Shown: in pieces, positions 14,947 through 27,632 of the stretch | How the letters are laid out: the number at the start of each line of letters is the position of its first letter | Numbering within the stretch: position 1 is the stretch's first letter | Assembly: GCF_039596395.1 (NCBI RefSeq) | Contig: NZ_JBCNJT010000003.1 | Location: forward strand, 310,001-374,000 | Direction: 5' to 3' | DNA: 64,000 nucleotides | Source of the DNA: Fluviicola sp. | Lineage (GTDB): Bacteria > Bacteroidota > Bacteroidia > Flavobacteriales_D > Crocinitomicaceae | Translations under genes and position numbers: made by a program | Notes under the pieces: generated by a model | What the model was told of the DNA's origin: nothing | Database searches by the model: none | What the model saw: the letters and a program-made list of their open reading frames with translations, nothing else

Positions 14947-16092
14947 ATGAAAATTGTACTGAAAACGTTTTATGGTTTAGAGGATGTACTTGCTGATGAG
15001 TTAAAGGAGCTTGGATTTCCGGAAAGTACGAAACTGAATAGAGCCGTTCAGATTGAAGGTGAATGGAAAGATGTGTATTTTCTGAACCTGCATGTGCGCT
15101 GCGCGATCTCGGTATTGGTGGAGTTGCGCAAGTTCCCGGTTAAAACGGAGAAAGACCTATACAACGAAGCAAAGAAAATCAATTGGTCTTCTTTGTTTGA
15201 TGTCAAAAAGACCTTTGCTGTAAAAGGAGCGATCCATTCTACCATTTTCAAGCATTCCCAATTCCCGTTTTTGCTGATCAAAGATGCGATCGTGGACCAT
15301 TTCCGCGACTTAAAAGGTGAAAGACCGGATATCAACGTAAAATCGCCGCAAATTGTAGTGGATTTATACGTTCGTGAGAACGAAGGAGTAATTTCAGTGA
15401 ATACAAGCGGTTTGCCTTTGTTCCAGAGAGGTTACCGCCAATCGACCGGTGATGCACCTTTGAATGAAGTAGTGGCTGCGGCTCTTTTGCGTATGAGCGA
15501 ATGGGATAAAAAAACAACATTGATAGATCCTTTCTGCGGTTCAGGAACCATCCTGATCGAAGCTGCTTTGCTGGCTGCCGGAATTCCGTCGAATATCGAA
15601 AGAACGCATTATGCTTTCAAGAATATGGCGAATTTCGATGCCGATTTGTGGGATGAAATCCATTCCAAAGCCAATAAATTGGTGAAAGAACTTCCGTGTA
15701 CACTGATAGGGGGAGATATTGACTCTCAAATGGTCATGAAAACACGCAGAAATCTTCGCGGATTTTCCTTCGGGAGATTTGTGGAAGTACACAATGCTTC
15801 GGTAGATGAATTCCCGTTCCCGGAAGGCCCTGCTTTCATGATTACCAATCCTCCTTACGGAGAACGATTGGAAACGGATGTGGAAGAACTTTACGGAACT
15901 TTGGGAAGTATCATGAAGCACCAGTTACTGGGATATTCCTGTTTTGTAATCTCTTCCAGCGAAGAAGGATTCAAATACCTGGCTTTAAGACCGGATAAGA
16001 AGTACAAACTCTTCAATGGTGACCTGGAATGTTCTTTCCGCAAATACACCATTTACGAAGGTTCCAAAAAAGGGGAGAAGCAGGAAGATTAA
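14947..16092 (+). CDS. THUMP-domain class I SAM-dependent RNA methyltransferase (RlmL/TrmN-like)
   Basis: A 381 aa cytoplasmic methyltransferase. The N-terminal ferredoxin-like and THUMP region (MKIVLKTFYGLEDVLADELKEL to about residue 160) binds RNA. The C-terminal Rossmann domain has LIDPFCGSGTILIEAAL (SAM motif I) and ITNPPYGERL, the NPPY motif of N2-guanine or N6-adenine modification. It corresponds to the N-terminal half of E. coli RlmL (23S m2G2445) without the RlmK half. The exact modified base is inference. Its stop overlaps the stop of the convergent gene by 4 nt. Confidence 0.9.
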   Translation: MKIVLKTFYGLEDVLADELKELGFPESTKLNRAVQIEGEWKDVYFLNLHVRCAISVLVELRKFPVKTEKDLYNEAKKINWSSLFDVKKTFAVKGAIHSTIFKHSQFPFLLIKDAIVDHFRDLKGERPDINVKSPQIVVDLYVRENEGVISVNTSGLPLFQRGYRQSTGDAPLNEVVAAALLRMSEWDKKTTLIDPFCGSGTILIEAALLAAGIPSNIERTHYAFKNMANFDADLWDEIHSKANKLVKELPCTLIGGDIDSQMVMKTRRNLRGFSFGRFVEVHNASVDEFPFPEGPAFMITNPPYGERLETDVEELYGTLGSIMKHQLLGYSCFVISSSEEGFKYLALRPDKKYKLFNGDLECSFRKYTIYEGSKKGEKQED

Positions 16093-17141
16093 GGAGTTAC
16101 AACAATGCGCTCGGAGATCAGGTGTTCCTGGTTGAAATAAACGAAGGTGTAAACGCCTGCCGGTAAATCCGATATTGTCACCTGATTGCTTTCCGCTACA
16201 CCTTTTAAAGCAATTTCTCTTCCGGAAGCATCCAGTAACCTGGAAGCAAGCAAGGTTTTGGAATCTCCCGTGATTTGAATGGTTCCGCTGGAAGGATTCG
16301 GATAGATGGTGAGTTCATGTATGTTTTTTAATTTCACCGACCGGATCTCGTGAAAACGCGTAAACCCGTTGAAATCGGTTTGGGATAAACGGTAGTAGCT
16401 CACTACATCTGAATACGGATCGTAATCATAGATTTTATAACGCAGGGGCGCGCTACTGTTTCCTGCTCCGTCCATGTAGGCAAATGCTTCGAAATGAATT
16501 CCGTCCAAACTCCGTTCGATTGTAAAGAAATCATTGTTTAGTTCGGTTTCGGTCCACCATTCACAGGCAACAGCCCTTCCTTCCGGTGAAACCTGGAATG
16601 CGGTTAATTCAACCGGTAAAGTACTCATGCAGTTCACACAGGTCGGTCCGCTGGAAGTGGTTGTGTAGGTAATAATTTCATCGGCCCTGTTGGCTCTGCC
16701 GGAAACACGAATGGTTCCTGGTCCGGTTAAGGTATAACTGTCCACTAAGGTTGCATTGCTTCCTCCTTGCTGGAAGATCTTGGAACCGCCCGCAATATCT
16801 ACTTTAACCACGTCGCATGTCTGACAATTTCCATCCGCTCCCTGGGCGGAAGTACAACCGGGTCTGTCTGTCATGGTGGCGCTAACGGTGTAGGTACATC
16901 CCGCTGGCACGGTTATATCTGTCTGCATCGGTAGATAACCTGCACTGCAGTTTCCGGAAGTACCGCCGCCGCAATTTGGACCTCCCAAACTGGTTAAATT
17001 ACACCCTGCAATGCATCCGCAACCGGCACCGGATACCCCGATTGAGCCTGAAGGACATTGCGCAAATAAGTTCATTGAGCCGGTAAACCAAAACACCAGG
17101 AATACCGGAAGGTACGGAAGGATAGCTGTAGTTTTTTTCAT
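16089..17141 (-). CDS. Secreted Cys-rich protein with type A T9SS sorting domain
   Basis: A 350 aa exported protein of unknown role. A signal peptide (MKKTTAILPYLPVFLVFWFTGSMNLFAQ) is followed by a Gly/Cys-rich N-terminal region with about a dozen cysteines (GAGCGCIAGCNL, CQTCDVV, CVNCM), which could form disulfides or bind metal. A middle module, LPVELTAFQVSPEGRAVACEW to SQTDFNGFTRFHEIRSV, is the common Bacteroidota T9SS-associated linker. The C-terminus (IHELTIYPNPSSG to ISERIVVTP) is a type A T9SS sorting domain. The frame runs upstream to a TTG at 17180, but that lies inside the -7 box (17178-17185), so ATG 17141 is preferred. Confidence 0.82.
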   Translation of the reverse strand: MKKTTAILPYLPVFLVFWFTGSMNLFAQCPSGSIGVSGAGCGCIAGCNLTSLGGPNCGGGTSGNCSAGYLPMQTDITVPAGCTYTVSATMTDRPGCTSAQGADGNCQTCDVVKVDIAGGSKIFQQGGSNATLVDSYTLTGPGTIRVSGRANRADEIITYTTTSSGPTCVNCMSTLPVELTAFQVSPEGRAVACEWWTETELNNDFFTIERSLDGIHFEAFAYMDGAGNSSAPLRYKIYDYDPYSDVVSYYRLSQTDFNGFTRFHEIRSVKLKNIHELTIYPNPSSGTIQITGDSKTLLASRLLDASGREIALKGVAESNQVTISDLPAGVYTFVYFNQEHLISERIVVTP

Positions 17142-17332: not shown

Positions 17333-17362
17333 TTTGAAACCAACTATTTCGAATTACTTTTG
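17333..17362 (+). promoter_or_regulatory. Complete Bacteroidota promoter driving the cobalamin riboswitch
   Basis: TTTG (17333-17336) is separated by 18 nt from TACTTTTG (17355-17362), the -33/-7 arrangement known for Bacteroidota sigma-ABfr promoters. The predicted start near 17367-17369 falls just before the first conserved riboswitch bases. This is the best two-part promoter I found in the window. Confidence 0.75.
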
Positions 17363-17367
17363 CACCG

Positions 17368-17535
17368 CGATTCGGTTCCCCGCCCCGGCGGAGATTAAAA
17401 GGGAATCCGGTGTAAATCCGGAGCTGTTCCCGCAACTGTAAGAGTCCGTATTTAATTCGAAATACCACTGTGCAGACGATACTGTCAGCATGGGAAGGTG
17501 AATTGAAGGACTTAGCCAGGAGACCTGCCAATCTG
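17368..17535 (+). promoter_or_regulatory. Cobalamin (B12) riboswitch
   Basis: The conserved core is readable in order: GGTTCCCC near 17374, AAAAGGGAATCCGGTG (17397 on), AATCCGGAGCTG, TCCCGCAACTGT (17428-17439), then after a variable region the B12 box AGCCAGGAGACCTGCC (17514-17529). Downstream, GGTGAAAAAGT (17553-17563) can pair with ACTTTTTCATC (17603-17613), a candidate expression platform; there is no long U-run after it, so control may be at translation. By family rule, adenosyl- or related cobalamin binding should repress the downstream gene. Confidence 0.95.
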
Positions 17536-17631
17536 TATGTACTGTAACTTTCGGTGAAAAAGTGAAGGAACGGATTGTCAAGTCATGAATTGGCTTCGTC
17601 GTTACTTTTTCATCGTTCTTATAACCAATAA

Positions 17632-19581
17632 ATGATGAAAAAAGTCGGATTAGCTCTCTTTTCCTTAATCTTATCTGCTACACTTTCTGCCCAAACCACT
17701 TTTCGTTTGGAACTCATTGCCGAAGGAAACTTCGGAACTCCGAATGCCGACATTTTTGTACGGAATACGACCCTTACTCCTGCAGTAAACTCAGCAGGAA
17801 TGTACCAAACCGCCAATGGTGTCAGCACAGGCTATGACGTACTCCAGGATTATGTAATTGCCGGGAATAAGGCCATTATCGGTGAAAAACCTTCAGGTGC
17901 CGGGCGCATTACCATCGTGAATTATCCTGCAATGACGGAAATTCACACGTTTGCTCAATCCGCACAAACACTCGGAGTTGCCAGCCCAACAAAAGCTTAT
18001 GCTTGTTATCCGCAGGGTGGAGTAGTTGCTTTAATCGACCTGGTTAATAATACGCTGACGCCTGTTGCCGAGCCAAACGGAGAAATTACGACCTATTGTA
18101 ATTTCATGGAATATGCAAACGGGCACATGTATCTGGATCAGGCGGGCCAGCTTGTAAAGATTGATACGCTCACCAATGCGGTTGTTGCGAAATTCAATCC
18201 CGGCGTAGGTTCGATCAAAGGATTGGCTTATGACGGGCAGGGGAAATTATGGGTTTTGGGAGGTTCCTCCCTGGTTCCGGTTGATGTGTTGAACAATGAT
18301 GCTTTAGGAACTGTAGTAAACATGGGAGTAACCGCGAAATTGCTTCGCTACTACAACAACAAACTCTATTTCTGGGCAAATACCGCCAAAACACTTTATC
18401 AATACGATATCATAACTCCTCCGGCTTTGCCATTAACGCCCGTTTATACGAGTACATTGATCGGGAGTACCGGAAGTTTCGGGACTTTCGGGTACGGTAG
18501 GTCTTTCGATATCGATCAGTCGACGGGGGATTTTGTGATTGCTTCCGCAAATAATTACACGGCTCCGGGATATTACGAAGTAGTGGATGGTACAACGTTT
18601 ACGGTTATCGAATCCGGTTCTATGCCCGGATGTGCTATCCCGAATAAGTGTGTATTGAAAACATACCATACTCCGGTTGGTTCGGTTCCCGTTCCGGATC
18701 AGGCTGCGCTTTCAACGATTTCTGGCCAGTGCAGTGTGTCGGTAACAGCACCGACTGCTGATAATGGTTCGGTGACCGGCACAACAACCGATCCAATGAA
18801 TTATTCCGCCCAGGGAACCTATACGGTCAACTGGACTTATACCAATGCAAACGGAACAGCTACACAAACGCAGACTGTAGTGGTGGATGATACTACCGAT
18901 CCGGTTCTACCGGTTTTGGATGATCTGAGCGGAACATGTTCGGTTACACCGGTTGTTCCAACTACTTCGGATAATTGCGCAGGAACGATAACAGGCACCA
19001 CTACAAGTACTTTCCCGATCTCTGCTATCGGAACGACGGTTGTAACCTGGGTTTTTGATGACGGAAACGGAAATTCGATCAGTGTAAACCAGCAGGTAAT
19101 GGTCATTGATAACACGGCACCTGTAACTTCAGCGCTTCCAACTGTAAATGTAACGTGTAACCAGGTGGTAACTGTCCCGGTAGCAACGGATGATTGCGCA
19201 GGTGTGATTACTGCAACGACCAATGATCCTGTTTCGTATGCAACAGCAGGAACGTATACCATTACCTGGAATTTCAATGACGGAAACGGGAACACAGCTT
19301 CTCAAAGCCAAACGGTAGTTGTTTCCTGTTCAAGTGCCGGGTTGGATGATTTGAGTGCTTCTGCGCTGTTCGTTTATCCTGTTCCGGCTTCAGAGAATTT
19401 ATCGATCGGAACGACTTCTTTGATGGGAGAACAGGCAGTCATTTATGATGCAAAAGGCCAAAAGGTTGCGGAAGTTCGTTTGGAAAGCATGAAAACGGAC
19501 CTGAATGTTTCTCTTTTGGAAAATGGGTTTTATGTGCTGAAAGCAGGGAATTCCACTTCGCAGTTTGTAATCAGTAAGTAA
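17632..19581 (+). CDS. Secreted BtuG/DUF5074-like beta-propeller with HYR-type domains and type A T9SS tag, riboswitch-controlled
   Basis: A 649 aa surface protein. A signal peptide (MMKKVGLALFSLILSATLSA) is followed at residues about 25-355 by a YncE/DUF5074-type propeller: EGNFGTPNAD near residue 31, repeated strands such as KLWVLGGSSLVPVDV, and a C-terminal blade YGRSFDIDQSTGDFVIAS. This is the signature of BtuG, the surface B12-binding propeller of Bacteroides. About three HYR-like modules (TDPVLPVLDDLSGTC, DNTAPVTSALPTV) and a type A T9SS sorting domain (ALFVYPVPASENLSIG to SQFVISK) follow. BtuG is a lipoprotein; this one would instead be anchored through T9SS. Control by a B12 riboswitch supports a cobalamin-capture role, which remains inference. 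No btuB is adjacent. A terminator follows. Confidence 0.85.
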   Translation: MMKKVGLALFSLILSATLSAQTTFRLELIAEGNFGTPNADIFVRNTTLTPAVNSAGMYQTANGVSTGYDVLQDYVIAGNKAIIGEKPSGAGRITIVNYPAMTEIHTFAQSAQTLGVASPTKAYACYPQGGVVALIDLVNNTLTPVAEPNGEITTYCNFMEYANGHMYLDQAGQLVKIDTLTNAVVAKFNPGVGSIKGLAYDGQGKLWVLGGSSLVPVDVLNNDALGTVVNMGVTAKLLRYYNNKLYFWANTAKTLYQYDIITPPALPLTPVYTSTLIGSTGSFGTFGYGRSFDIDQSTGDFVIASANNYTAPGYYEVVDGTTFTVIESGSMPGCAIPNKCVLKTYHTPVGSVPVPDQAALSTISGQCSVSVTAPTADNGSVTGTTTDPMNYSAQGTYTVNWTYTNANGTATQTQTVVVDDTTDPVLPVLDDLSGTCSVTPVVPTTSDNCAGTITGTTTSTFPISAIGTTVVTWVFDDGNGNSISVNQQVMVIDNTAPVTSALPTVNVTCNQVVTVPVATDDCAGVITATTNDPVSYATAGTYTITWNFNDGNGNTASQSQTVVVSCSSAGLDDLSASALFVYPVPASENLSIGTTSLMGEQAVIYDAKGQKVAEVRLESMKTDLNVSLLENGFYVLKAGNSTSQFVISK

Positions 19582-19604: not shown

Positions 19605-19642
19605 AAAAAAAAGGCTGTCTGCTTAGGTATGGCAGCCTTTTT
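19605..19642 (+). terminator. Rho-independent terminator of the BtuG-like gene
   Basis: AAAAAGGCTG (19608-19617) pairs with CAGCCTTTTT (19633-19642), leaving a 15 nt loop and ending in a U-run, 23 nt after the stop codon. Confidence 0.85.
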
Positions 19643-19652
19643 AGTTCGGTAT

Positions 19653-19910: not shown

Positions 19911-21200
19911 TTATTTTCTGTCTTTGATAGCAACGTAATCTCTGGATACAGATCCAGTGTAGATTTGTCTTGGGCGACCGATCGGTTCTCCACCTTCAGA
20001 CATTTCTTTCCATTGTGCAATCCATCCCGGAAGACGTCCTAATGCGAACATTACGGTAAACATTTCAGATGGAATTCCAAGAGCTTTGTAGATGATTCCG
20101 GAGTAGAAATCTACGTTCGGGTACAAGCTTCTTGATTTGAAGTATTCGTCTTCCAAAGCTACTTTTTCCAATTTCTTGGCAATTTCCAATAACGGATCGT
20201 CGATTTTCAATTTCTCCAATACGTCATCTGCAGCTTTCTTAATGATCGTAGCACGCGGGTCAAAGTTTTTGTAAACGCGGTGACCGAATCCCATCAAACG
20301 GAATGGATCGTCCTTGTCTTTTGCTTTCAATACCCATTTGTCAACGTCTCCTCCGTCGTTGTGGATTTTCTCCAGCATTTCGATTACTGCCTGGTTAGCT
20401 CCACCGTGAAGCGGCCCCCAAAGAGCAGAAATACCTGCGGAAATGGATGCGTATAAGTTTGCCTGGGATGAACCTACGATACGAACTGTAGATGTAGAAC
20501 AGTTTTGTTCGTGATCCGCATGAAGGATCAACAATTTGTTCAATGCGTCAACAACAACCGGATCAACTTTGTAATCTTCCGTTGGCATTGCAAACATCAT
20601 GTACAGGAAGTTCTTTACGTAATCGTATTCGTTCTTAGGGTACATGAACGGGTGACGCATGGAGTTTTTGTATGACCATGCAGCCAGTGTAGGCAATTTC
20701 GCTAACAAACGTAAAATTGTTCTGTTCTTTTTCTCAGCACTTCTGTTCGGGTCCAAAGACTCCGGGTAGAAGGTAGAAAGTGAACAAACCATTGCAGATA
20801 ATACTCCCATTGGGTGTGCCTGAGCAGGATATGCTTCAAAGAATTGCTTCATATCTTCGTGCACCAATGTGTGTTTAGTGATGCTTGAGATAAACTCATC
20901 CAATTGCGCCTGAGTCGGCAAATCACCATAGATCAACAAATAAGCAACTTCAATAAAGCTTGCCTTCTCTGCCAATTGCTCGATCGGGTATCCACGGTAA
21001 TGAAGAATTCCTTCTTCACCATCTAAAAAAGTGATGGCACTGGTTGTAGCACCTGTATTTTTGTAACCTACATCTAAAGTTACATAACCCGTTTCCTGAC
21101 GAAGTTTTGAAATATCAATCGCCAATTCATTTTCAGTACCTTGTACAACCGGGAATTCATATACTTTCCCGTCTAATTCGATTTTCGCAATTTTGCTCAT
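19911..21200 (-). CDS. gltA: Citrate synthase
   Basis: A 429 aa enzyme of the TCA cycle that condenses acetyl-CoA with oxaloacetate. The length and the N-terminal beta-strand domain (MSKIAKIELDGKVYEFPVVQGTEN) match the hexameric type II bacterial form. Catalytic segments are present: GPLHGGANQAV (His), FGHRVYKNFDPRA (second His and the Asp region), and DFYSGIIYKALGIP. I chose ATG 21200, where family similarity begins; the frame continues 16 codons upstream to 21248 without family character. It is monocistronic, with terminators on both sides. Confidence 0.97.
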   Translation of the reverse strand: MSKIAKIELDGKVYEFPVVQGTENELAIDISKLRQETGYVTLDVGYKNTGATTSAITFLDGEEGILHYRGYPIEQLAEKASFIEVAYLLIYGDLPTQAQLDEFISSITKHTLVHEDMKQFFEAYPAQAHPMGVLSAMVCSLSTFYPESLDPNRSAEKKNRTILRLLAKLPTLAAWSYKNSMRHPFMYPKNEYDYVKNFLYMMFAMPTEDYKVDPVVVDALNKLLILHADHEQNCSTSTVRIVGSSQANLYASISAGISALWGPLHGGANQAVIEMLEKIHNDGGDVDKWVLKAKDKDDPFRLMGFGHRVYKNFDPRATIIKKAADDVLEKLKIDDPLLEIAKKLEKVALEDEYFKSRSLYPNVDFYSGIIYKALGIPSEMFTVMFALGRLPGWIAQWKEMSEGGEPIGRPRQIYTGSVSRDYVAIKDRK

Positions 21201-21316
21201 GATGAGATGATCTATAAGAGTGTTATCTAACAATTTTATTAGCCGCACTAAATTAGTAAAGAAATAAATACAATAAACTGCAAACGATAAACTTTTTTTG
21301 CCAAAAAAGGTTAGCT

Positions 21317-24896: not shown

Positions 24897-27632
24897 ATGA
24901 AAAATCTGCTAGTCTTCTTTTGCCTGCTCATTGGGTTGTCTGCTTTCTCCCAGGAGAAGGTTGCACTGACCGGTGTAGTGATGGATCCTGAAACCAATGA
25001 GCCGGTAATCGGTGCGGTGGTAGCATGTGATTCAACATCTAAAGCAATTACTGATATTGATGGAAAATACACTTTCCAGGTTGATAAAAATACGAAGCAC
25101 ACGATCACCATGGAATACTACGGCTTTGAAAATTACAAAGCGGAAGTAGCAGTTGGCAATACAGATTACGTTCATGACTTTACACTGAAAGTAAGTGGAA
25201 ATATCATTGATGAGGTAGAGATCGTTCGCGATGTTGCAAAACTGAGAGAAACGCCGATTGCCTTTTCGAATATTTCAGCAAAACAAATTGCGGAAGAATT
25301 GGGTACGCGCGACTTACCGATGATCCTTAACTCAACACCAGGTGTTTATGCAACCGAGCAGGGTGGAGGAACCGGGGATTCCCGTATTTCAATCCGTGGA
25401 TTTGATCAGCGAAATGTAGCTGTTCTGGTTGATGGTGTTCCGGTAAATGACATGGAAAACGGTCAGGTTTACTGGAGTAACTGGGACGGTTTGGGTGATA
25501 TTACAAGAACTGTTCAGGTACAAAGAGGATTGGGAGCTTCCAAACTGGCAATTACTTCTGTGGGTGGTACAATGAATATCATGACCAAAGGAATTGACCA
25601 AAAGTTTGGCGTTCACGTGAAGGGTGAAGTAAACAGTTATGGATTATATAAAGCGTCTTTCGGTTTAAATACCGGAATGATGAAAGGAAACTGGGGAATT
25701 TCAGTTGCCGGTTCCAGAAAATGGGGTTCCAGCTATGCAGATGCTACATTTGATGATGCATGGTCTTATTTCTTCAAAGTTCAAAAGAAGTTTGGAAAAC
25801 ACCACATCATGAGTTTGGGAGTAAACGGTGCACCACAGTCGCACGGTCAGAGAACTACCAAATTACCGATTTCAGTCGTAGACGAGAAATTGGCTAAAAA
25901 GACGGGAGTTGATTACCAGCGTCAAATTGATTCGGTTGCAGGTACAAGTAACTTGTATTACACCACTTCAGAGATCGGAGCACGCGGGAATAAGTATAAT
26001 CCGAATTACGGATTTATTAATGGAGAAGTTTACAATGAAAAAGTAAACTACTTCCACAAACCGCAGTTCAACTTATCTCACTCCTGGAACCCGAACGAAA
26101 AATTCAACTGGACAACGATTGCTTACCTGTCAATTGGTAAAGGAGGAGGTACTTCTTTCAGAAATACACCGGCAAGGGATACAACTACCGGATTGTATAA
26201 CTTACAAAAGATTTACGATCAGAACTCCAGCAGCTATTCCAGTTTGTACAGTACAACGGAGCATTCTTCTTCCAATTACCTGAGATCTGCCAATAACGAC
26301 CACAAATGGGTCGGTTTGATTTCCTCGATCTCTTATAAGATCAATAAAAATATCTCAACGCTTTTCGGTATCGATGCACGTTATTACAGAGGAAGCCACT
26401 ATCAAACGATTTATGACCTGGTAGGTGGTGATTATGCAATCGACAATTCGGACAAGAACCAACCAAAAGGAATAGCAAACCTAAGCTATGCGATGAAACG
26501 TAAAGGAGACAAGGTTTCCTATTACAACGATGCGATCGTGATGTGGGGAGGAGCTTTTGCGCAGGTTGAGTACAAAAAAGACAAGTGGTCTACTTTCCTG
26601 ACCGGTTCACTTTCTGAAACAGGAAACCAGCGAATCGATTACTTCAAGAAAAAAGACCTTGTGTTATCGGATACCTTGATGAGACAAGCAGTAGGTTACG
26701 GAGATACGGTAGAATACAAGGGTCAGAAGTACACCAACCAGTCACCGGAAGCCAGAACTGCTACAACAGACAGAAAATGGTTTTTGGGAGGAACGGTTAA
26801 AGGAGGTGTGAATTATAACATCAACCTGCACCACAATGTGTTCCTGAATGTTGGATACTTAAGTATTGCTCCGAAAATGAATACCGTTTTCGATAACAAT
26901 AACCTGCCGTTTTTAGAAACGAAAAACCAAAAAGTATATTCCGTAGAATTAGGATATGGTTACAGAACCAAGAAATTTGCGGCGAACCTGAACCTGTATT
27001 ATACTTTGTGGAAAAACAAACCGCCGCAGTATACTCCTACGGTAGTTACTCCAGACGGGACATTCTCCTACAACATCAACGGTTTGGATGCATTGCACAA
27101 AGGAGTTGAAGTCGACTTCAATTACAACATCACTAAGAACCTGAATGTGGAAGGTGTTGTAACAGTTGCAGACTGGAAGACTATTTCCGGATCCAAAGTA
27201 TATATCGTGGATAATAACGGGGTGATGGTTGACTCCGTTGACTTTAGTGCGAAAAACGTTCACGTAGGTGATGCCGCACAGCTTCAGATCGGAGGTTCCG
27301 TAAGATATGAGATCATTAAAGACCTTTATGTGAAAGTAAGGTACACTTACTTCGGCAGAAACTTCGCGAATTTCGATCCTTTGGCACTTGTTGGGCCAAA
27401 TAAGGACAGGGAATCCTGGCAGATGCCAAGCTACGGATTATTAGATTTTAATGTGGGATATACATTCAGAGTTTCTAAAATGTATTTCACATTGAACGGT
27501 GGTATCATGAACGTTTTGGATAACGTTTACATCACTGATTCACAAAACGGGTTAAACTTCGATGCCAGTTCCGCATTGGTTTTTGTGGGGATGGGAAGAA
27601 GATTTAACCTTGGTTTAAAAATAGGAATATGA
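24897..27632 (+). CDS. TonB-dependent outer-membrane receptor
   Basis: A 911 aa receptor. After the signal peptide (MKNLLVFFCLLIGLSAFSQ) comes a carboxypeptidase-regulatory-like domain (VALTGVVMDPETNEPVIGAVV), then the plug (GTRDLPMILNSTPGVYATEQGGGTGDSRISIRGFDQRNVAVLVDGVPVNDMENG, given here only as location about residues 130-190), then a 22-strand barrel ending in aromatic LGLKIGI. There is no SusD-type partner. It overlaps the following endonuclease gene by 4 nt (ATGA), so the substrate is likely a product of that enzyme, such as oligonucleotides or nucleosides; this is inference from context. Confidence 0.92.
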   Translation: MKNLLVFFCLLIGLSAFSQEKVALTGVVMDPETNEPVIGAVVACDSTSKAITDIDGKYTFQVDKNTKHTITMEYYGFENYKAEVAVGNTDYVHDFTLKVSGNIIDEVEIVRDVAKLRETPIAFSNISAKQIAEELGTRDLPMILNSTPGVYATEQGGGTGDSRISIRGFDQRNVAVLVDGVPVNDMENGQVYWSNWDGLGDITRTVQVQRGLGASKLAITSVGGTMNIMTKGIDQKFGVHVKGEVNSYGLYKASFGLNTGMMKGNWGISVAGSRKWGSSYADATFDDAWSYFFKVQKKFGKHHIMSLGVNGAPQSHGQRTTKLPISVVDEKLAKKTGVDYQRQIDSVAGTSNLYYTTSEIGARGNKYNPNYGFINGEVYNEKVNYFHKPQFNLSHSWNPNEKFNWTTIAYLSIGKGGGTSFRNTPARDTTTGLYNLQKIYDQNSSSYSSLYSTTEHSSSNYLRSANNDHKWVGLISSISYKINKNISTLFGIDARYYRGSHYQTIYDLVGGDYAIDNSDKNQPKGIANLSYAMKRKGDKVSYYNDAIVMWGGAFAQVEYKKDKWSTFLTGSLSETGNQRIDYFKKKDLVLSDTLMRQAVGYGDTVEYKGQKYTNQSPEARTATTDRKWFLGGTVKGGVNYNINLHHNVFLNVGYLSIAPKMNTVFDNNNLPFLETKNQKVYSVELGYGYRTKKFAANLNLYYTLWKNKPPQYTPTVVTPDGTFSYNINGLDALHKGVEVDFNYNITKNLNVEGVVTVADWKTISGSKVYIVDNNGVMVDSVDFSAKNVHVGDAAQLQIGGSVRYEIIKDLYVKVRYTYFGRNFANFDPLALVGPNKDRESWQMPSYGLLDFNVGYTFRVSKMYFTLNGGIMNVLDNVYITDSQNGLNFDASSALVFVGMGRRFNLGLKIGI

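Follow-up and report, generated by a model that had tools for sequence, protein, structure and literature searches.

A cobalamin riboswitch in front of a single gene

The window analysed here, a stretch of 64,000 nucleotides from the genome of a Fluviicola sp. (contig NZ_JBCNJT010000003.1, positions 310,001 to 374,000), contains on its plus strand a cobalamin riboswitch, followed by a gene (17632-19581) encoding a secreted protein of 649 amino acids. This protein combines a BtuG-like beta-propeller with immunoglobulin (Ig)-like modules and a sorting domain of the type IX secretion system (T9SS). An initial annotation, made from the DNA letters alone, had proposed that it does the job of BtuG, the surface lipoprotein that captures B12 for BtuB in Bacteroides. 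The analysis presented below points to a different role, probably that of an accessory cobamide catcher.

The riboswitch aptamer (17355-17546, plus strand) matches the Rfam model RF00174 over its full length (model positions 1-189 of 189), with a score of 112.6 bits versus a cut-off of 31.5 and an E-value, computed over the whole window, of 2e-27. It is the sole Rfam match at gathering score in the window among the matches listed, and it bears out the annotation of a full cobalamin riboswitch. From this match, and by analogy with the Bacteroides switches, we infer that the element is a cobalamin-binding, cobalamin-repressed switch. The aptamer is preceded by a Bacteroidota-type promoter, TTTG-N18-TACTTTTG (17333-17362, plus strand), which was confirmed by direct reading: the TTTG is located at 17333-17336 and is separated by an 18-nt spacer from TACTTTTG at 17355-17362, the -7 box with which the start of RF00174 as drawn by Rfam coincides. 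The TAnnTTTG motif has been named as a Bacteroidota promoter element (PMC9723704). Among the 13 homologous leaders, including that of the window, the strict promoter pattern is present in three and the -7 box TAnnTTTG in eight. The sigma-70 scan of the region has a coverage outside of which TTTG-N18-type promoters fall.

A putative expression platform (17546-17631, plus strand) is located between the aptamer and the start codon, a distance that ranges from 85 to 118 nt in the 13 copies. It contains a hairpin (17552-17615) whose minimum free energy, -24.2 kcal/mol, makes it much more stable than shuffled sequences (z -3.97). As judged by eye, its 5' arm, GAAAAAGU, can pair with an ACUUUC on its upstream side or alternatively with ACUUUUUC on its downstream side, and this looks like a switch based on two mutually exclusive hairpins, to which a regulatory role may tentatively be ascribed. 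The motif CTTTCGGnGAAAAA, which precedes the hairpin, was found in 10 of the 13 leaders.

As annotated, a single gene follows the riboswitch, the next open reading frame (ORF; 19911-21248) being located on the opposite strand. The encoded protein starts with a predicted Sec signal peptide (residues ~1-21; 17632-17694), recognized by eye from the translation; no Cys, and hence no lipobox or lipoprotein signal, was seen within it, in contrast to the BtuG encoded elsewhere in the same genome, which by eye does carry a lipoprotein-type Cys. It is followed by the propeller domain (residues ~21-345; 17692-18666), supported by an AlphaFold2 model, Foldseek/VIA and hhalign, and then by three HYR/Ig-like modules of about 70 amino acids each (residues ~358-566; 18703-19329). 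The Pfam family HYR_4C matches two stretches of the latter region, confirming the annotated HYR-like modules; three modules were counted by eye on the alignment, where the middle one is missing from the relatives in Taishania and Brumimicrobium. The T9SS type A sorting domain comes last (residues 581-646; 19372-19569), and here the annotation was also correct: both PF18962 (Por_Secre_tail, 35.6 bits) and TIGR04183 (30.2 bits) score above cut-off. All of these features are on the plus strand. The protein thus has its putative binding domain in front, followed by a stalk and a T9SS anchor. HYR_4C and Por_Secre_tail are the only Pfam families above cut-off, next to the NCBIfam T9SS sorting domain. 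The label "DUF5074-type" could not be upheld at the level of Pfam, as PF16819 did not match the protein at E <= 1.

A terminator-like hairpin (19619-19635), which together with its T run covers 19619-19645, is present 3' of the gene on the plus strand; this is weak evidence on its own because the region contains five such sites versus 2.8 +/- 1.7 in shuffled sequences. Upstream, a divergent gene (16089-17123, minus strand) encodes another, uncharacterised T9SS-tailed protein; by eye, it also lies beside the propeller gene in three near relatives (L014-L016).

The propeller is a BtuG homologue

The domain is a homologue of BtuG. For the comparison, 55 ORFs similar to the genome's own BtuG were taken from the examined loci, of which 49 were kept after removal of six duplicates or fragments; addition of BtuG2 resulted in a set of 50. 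Alignment of the propeller family with the 49 BtuGs by hhalign gave a probability of 99.7% and an E-value of 6e-26 over 311 columns. Likewise, when a ten-member family profile, in which no member is DUF5074-positive, was used in hmmsearch, BtuG chains occupied nine of ten places (best E-value 9.5e-7). A model of residues 21-353, predicted by AlphaFold2 from 10 sequences, has a predicted local distance difference test score (pLDDT) of 88.8 and a predicted TM-score (pTM) of 0.88. In a Foldseek search of the PDB, the top 19 rows were all solved BtuG or BtuK1 chains, including 3dsm of Bacteroides uniformis. The predicted model superimposes on a BtuG chain (VIA Z 29.8, root-mean-square deviation 2.6 over 298 residues), in line with the relationship suggested initially. 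In the phylogenetic tree, a single strongly supported branch separates the propellers from the 50 BtuG rows; since the tree is midpoint-rooted and subject to a long-branch warning (G063 above all), the propellers form a clade only if the root falls outside them.

Relatives were found in 10 of 99 genomes, the own genome included; the match in G009 is PorZ and was rejected, which leaves nine. A scan of GTDB contigs gave nine loci, six of which were already in the set and three of which were added. In a draw of 392 genomes across the phylum, 29 matched, mostly weakly, and two, one of them the own genome, matched strongly over the whole propeller; G274 was added to the set from this draw. RF00174 is located directly in front of all 13 copies, one of them broken; 37 places were listed for RF00174, and the scan covered those with a locus. 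All 12 full-length copies have the T9SS tail, 11 have HYR_4C and two match DUF5074, and the propellers are 73-88% identical within a genus. The broken copy, in G025 (L020:6698-7720, minus strand), has an internal stop and apparently lacks the T9SS tail, with its riboswitch intact; it was not used in building the tree, in counting tails or in aligning the family. As a side observation, CP034120.1 (L056), which is titled Glaciecola amylolytica, corresponds to the G003 genome assigned to the genus of the window, and its label looks wrong.

The neighbourhoods of the 13 copies (9-17 kb, and 64 kb for the window) were screened by tblastn with the own-genome BtuH, BtuB, BtuG and a fourth protein of the same operon (protein X, see below), and none of these was found beside the propeller gene. 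The identical search recovered all four in their own operon and in two others. The contig of G063 stops ~0.5 kb past the gene, and distant btu relatives may escape such a search, because tblastn with the own BtuG misses the propeller itself. Given the invariable riboswitch and the btu-free neighbourhoods, the conserved unit therefore consists of the riboswitch plus a single gene.

The Btu apparatus and T9SS export

The annotated absence of btuB next to the propeller gene holds for the locus, and does not extend to the genome (4.64 Mb, 100% complete), where a btuB-like gene is present elsewhere under its own riboswitch. The genome has three RF00174 matches, one of which precedes an operon, btuH-btuB-btuG-X (C1:905000-917000). 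Its btuH encodes a DUF4465 protein with a T9SS tail. The best NCBIfam match of its TonB receptor is the B12 receptor TIGR01779 (E-value 7.6e-18), whose cut-off it does not reach, and its BtuG is a 353-amino acid DUF5074 lipoprotein that matches the BtuG1 chain 8blw_B at 6e-70. The idea of a genome without btuB or BtuG was rejected because both are in this operon, and the usual B12 uptake apparatus therefore exists. The TonB receptor encoded in the window (24897-27632) was considered as a missing BtuB and also rejected, since it lies 5.3 kb off behind two opposite-strand ORFs, lacks a riboswitch of its own and does not match the BtuB of the genome. That it scores below the NCBIfam cut-off for B12 receptors is no argument, because the BtuB-like receptor of the operon does so too. 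Matches were found for the MetH activation domain and for methylmalonyl-CoA mutase, and none in the genome for CbiC, which fits a B12 scavenger; judging from the missing CbiC match, these bacteria apparently do not synthesize the corrin ring themselves. SprA, the T9SS component that was searched for, is present (2384 bits).

The last gene of the operon encodes protein X (L023:2949-3926, minus strand), a T9SS-tailed protein of 325 amino acids without any other known domain. Further genes of this type are located at L052:1774-2751 (plus strand) and L054:22-1041 (minus strand). In G063, such a gene comes first behind a B12 riboswitch, and in G009 it is preceded by a riboswitch and a thioesterase gene. 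By its genetic context, protein X is a candidate new B12-capture protein. The third, short RF00174 match of the genome (G000:C1 1774007-1774150, minus strand) is located ahead of a Cys_rich_CWC gene and a gene for a 4HBT thioesterase (L024:5186-5872, minus strand). Cys_rich_CWC also adjoins RF00174 in four of the 30 relatives' loci scanned (L043, L050, L051 and L053), and by eye a thioesterase-like ORF is the first after the riboswitch in L048 and L054. Speculatively, this unit is perhaps a response that saves coenzyme A when methylmalonyl-CoA mutase is without B12.

The operon bears on a possibility close to the one originally proposed, namely that the window protein functions as a BtuG. It would then be a lid of BtuB that comes in trans from a locus of its own and is attached through the T9SS instead of a lipid. 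Its homology and fold are those of BtuG, and in three genomes outside the class (G359, G367 and G509) a T9SS-tailed DUF5074 protein is encoded directly behind a TonB receptor under RF00174, the receptor being identified by Pfam in G359 and by eye in G367 and G509. T9SS-tailed DUF5074 proteins are located at L137:5130-6479, L138:4742-6067 and L139:5065-6576, all on the minus strand. Because of this arrangement, a T9SS-held BtuG may serve as a lid elsewhere. In the window's genome, however, a lipoprotein BtuG is already encoded immediately behind btuB, and eight of the nine other propeller genomes examined (seven of the eight in the 99-genome set, plus G274) also have a separate DUF5074 match. 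None was found in G058, which is 87% complete; with the own genome the count is nine of ten, the genomes behind L061-L063 lying outside it. Moreover, two elements of the BtuBG complex, the N-terminal lipid linker and a full beta5A loop, are missing from the propeller (PMC10404256). We therefore consider a lid function quite improbable here, and with the own operon, the separate tree branch and the shorter beta5A loop, the claim that the protein takes over the task of BtuG was not supported. An accessory role beside BtuB-BtuG remains our preferred interpretation.

The T9SS tail is not confined to the propeller. Fifteen riboswitch-linked DUF4465 (BtuH-type) proteins of the own genome and its relatives were compared, the own one plus 14 present in 30 scanned riboswitch loci, and all but that of L037 have a T9SS tail. 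Together with the propellers of G359, G367 and G509, which fall in a different part of the tree from the window family, these tails make T9SS export of B12-capture proteins seem a recurrent theme. Longer DUF5074 frames in the order were tried as further T9SS-tailed cases and mostly rejected: seven were examined among the matches listed (frames of 383-392 and of more than 1000 amino acids being outside the seven), and six of them (L095-L099 and L101) are of the lipoprotein type by eye, most with a 5' extension. The seventh (L100) sits in a different T9SS-type protein. No published description of T9SS-exported B12-capture proteins was found in the literature searched, from which subscription journals were mostly absent, and neither PMC13398666 nor PMC8941943 mentions the T9SS in its main text. 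Work on B12 capture in the Bacteroidota has dealt with gut Bacteroides, whose characterised extracellular catchers are lipoproteins (PMC12751083, PMC8941943); the group of relatives described here appears to use the T9SS for this class of protein.

A possible accessory cobamide catcher

Based on the riboswitch, the predicted model and the analogy with BtuH2, we propose, with a probability of about 0.6, that the window gene is a stand-alone, B12-repressed unit for an accessory extracellular cobamide catcher that feeds a separate BtuB-BtuG. At low cobalamin, the riboswitch would leave the gene on, as expected from RF00174 and the Bacteroides switches. The protein would cross the inner membrane via Sec and the outer membrane via the T9SS, as suggested by its tail and by the presence of SprA, and the latter step would either fix it to the surface or release it. 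A supernatant containing BtuG2 can feed cells in trans, but BtuG2 that had been purified from E. coli failed to do so (PMC6143338). The N-terminal propeller, on its short Ig-like stalk, might then capture cobamides in a remodelled BtuG pocket and pass them on to the lipoprotein BtuG and to BtuB, which are encoded at a different locus and would carry out the uptake. B12 control is backed here by a sequence match and export by a domain match, homology and fold were computed, and we infer the ligand, the hand-over and the localisation. A BtuH2-like role is the simplest reading of this combination.

The ligand contacts of BtuG2 named in PMC10404256 are the loop Asn54-Thr64, Trp194, Tyr239, Trp272, Tyr316 and Tyr335. 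They were mapped by a profile alignment of 11 family rows (G063 and G025 left out) with the 50 BtuGs, in which the BtuG2 loop NEGNFQYSNAT corresponds to AEGNFGTPNAD in the window protein. Within this corrin-holding loop (54-64), Glu55, Gly56, Asn57, Phe58 (as Phe or Tyr) and Asn62 are retained, the position of Tyr316 is occupied by Tyr in all 11 rows, and that of Tyr335 by Tyr or Phe in all 11.

Several observations weigh against the proposed role. Arg133, present in 92% of the BtuGs, is Gln in all 11 propellers; Glu180 and Ser109 are retained in none of them, Asn107 in two, and Pro132 in six, among which the window protein is not found. Tyr239 has no counterpart in the family, and Trp194 and Trp272 are lost, neither of which is general among the 50 BtuGs. 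The stretch of the beta5A loop, which in BtuG helps to hold B12 and in BtuG3 simulations moves with the BtuB loop EL8 at hand-over (PMC10404256), comprises 7-11 residues in the propellers versus 14-25 in the 50 BtuGs. On an alignment that is biased toward matches, the propellers retain 10 of the 15 BtuG columns conserved at 90%, only 16 of the 28 conserved at 80%, and 39 of the 179 conserved below 50%. An electrostatic pull of BtuG2 on B12 has been described (PMC10404256), and the net charge of the window propeller is less negative, -6 versus -15 for BtuG2 (the own-genome BtuG also has -6). The fold by itself is a moderate argument only, because the best chain without known B12 binding reaches a VIA Z of 25.5, and a propeller can go without binding, as BtuK2 failed to bind B12 though BtuK1 bound it (PMC12751083). 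In addition, BtuG chains of the PDB were retrieved by profiles only, the window protein as a single query having returned none, and the family is rare (9 of the 99 relatives' genomes; 2 of the 392 in the phylum with a strong match).

Taken together, the loop and the Tyr positions are retained and the polar residues and the beta5A loop are changed, and part of the pocket is therefore kept, part is remodelled and the gate facing BtuB is reduced.

Alternatively, the protein might have another ligand that is of importance under B12 shortage, which could be a protein carrying B12, an incomplete corrinoid or, for an adhesin, the surface of a B12-producing neighbour. Ala30, Asp40 and Gln112 (the latter replacing a conserved Arg) are invariant in all 11 rows at positions equivalent to the pocket, and resemble a site that has been altered yet is under selection; the Ig-like modules and the T9SS would suit an adhesin. 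Since cobamide binders have the nearest solved folds and the loop that holds the corrin is retained, we regard a different ligand as unlikely. That the propeller has lost ligand binding altogether, as a decaying paralogue retained by chance, is suggested by the broken, apparently tail-less G025 copy and by the BtuK2 precedent. Decay is opposed by the 12 full-length copies in several genera that retain riboswitch and tail and by the 73-88% identity of the propellers within a genus, and it strikes us as very improbable. Accessory cobamide capture thus remains the role that we favour.

If so, the propeller would represent a second type of cobamide catcher with the BtuG fold, acting apart from BtuB, exported by the T9SS, either Ig-stalked or released as a shuttle, and complementing the BtuB-BtuG lid. 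On a wider scale, extracellular B12-capture proteins of this Bacteroidota family (propeller, DUF4465 BtuH and the 325-amino acid protein) would be delivered mainly via the T9SS, and in some genomes of other classes a T9SS-anchored BtuG would take the place of the lipoprotein BtuG beside btuB. We put forward this combined picture tentatively, at slightly less than even odds. What the locus does contain is a BtuG-type propeller outside a btuB operon, with a shortened form of the loop that BtuG uses at its binding site and on its BtuB side. Should it bind cobamides, capture would be separated from gating within one fold, and the protein would be a case of a free-standing B12 catcher in bacteria that apparently lack corrin-ring synthesis.

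Compared with BtuG1-3 of Bacteroides thetaiotaomicron (PF16819), the window protein shares the homologous propeller, the B12-riboswitch control, the expected surface export, the corrin-holding N-terminal loop and the Tyr316/Tyr335 positions. It differs from them in its Ig-like modules and T9SS tail, which take the place of an N-terminal lipid, in the location of its gene outside the btuB operon, in its short beta5A loop, in the loss of conserved polar residues and in forming a separate branch. BtuK1 (9s6c) is also a B12-binding propeller and is among the top structural matches, but it is a lipoprotein of a btu operon (PMC12751083) with 12-13% identity to the window propeller. The T9SS-tailed DUF5074 proteins of G359, G367 and G509 resemble the window protein in their BtuG-type propeller, T9SS tail and RF00174, and differ from it in being encoded directly behind a receptor gene, in matching PF16819 above cut-off and in their position in the tree. 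The closest functional parallel proposed here is BtuH2, a DUF4465 protein with Ig-like domains that binds B12 and is required for its efficient transport, and that was not seen to associate stably with either BtuB2 or BtuG2 (PMC8941943). In our model, both proteins join a B12-binding domain to Ig-like domains and are surface-held and riboswitch-controlled. Their folds are different, however, and whereas BtuH2 in Bacteroides has an N-terminal lipid anchor, the anchor of the window protein is located at the other end.

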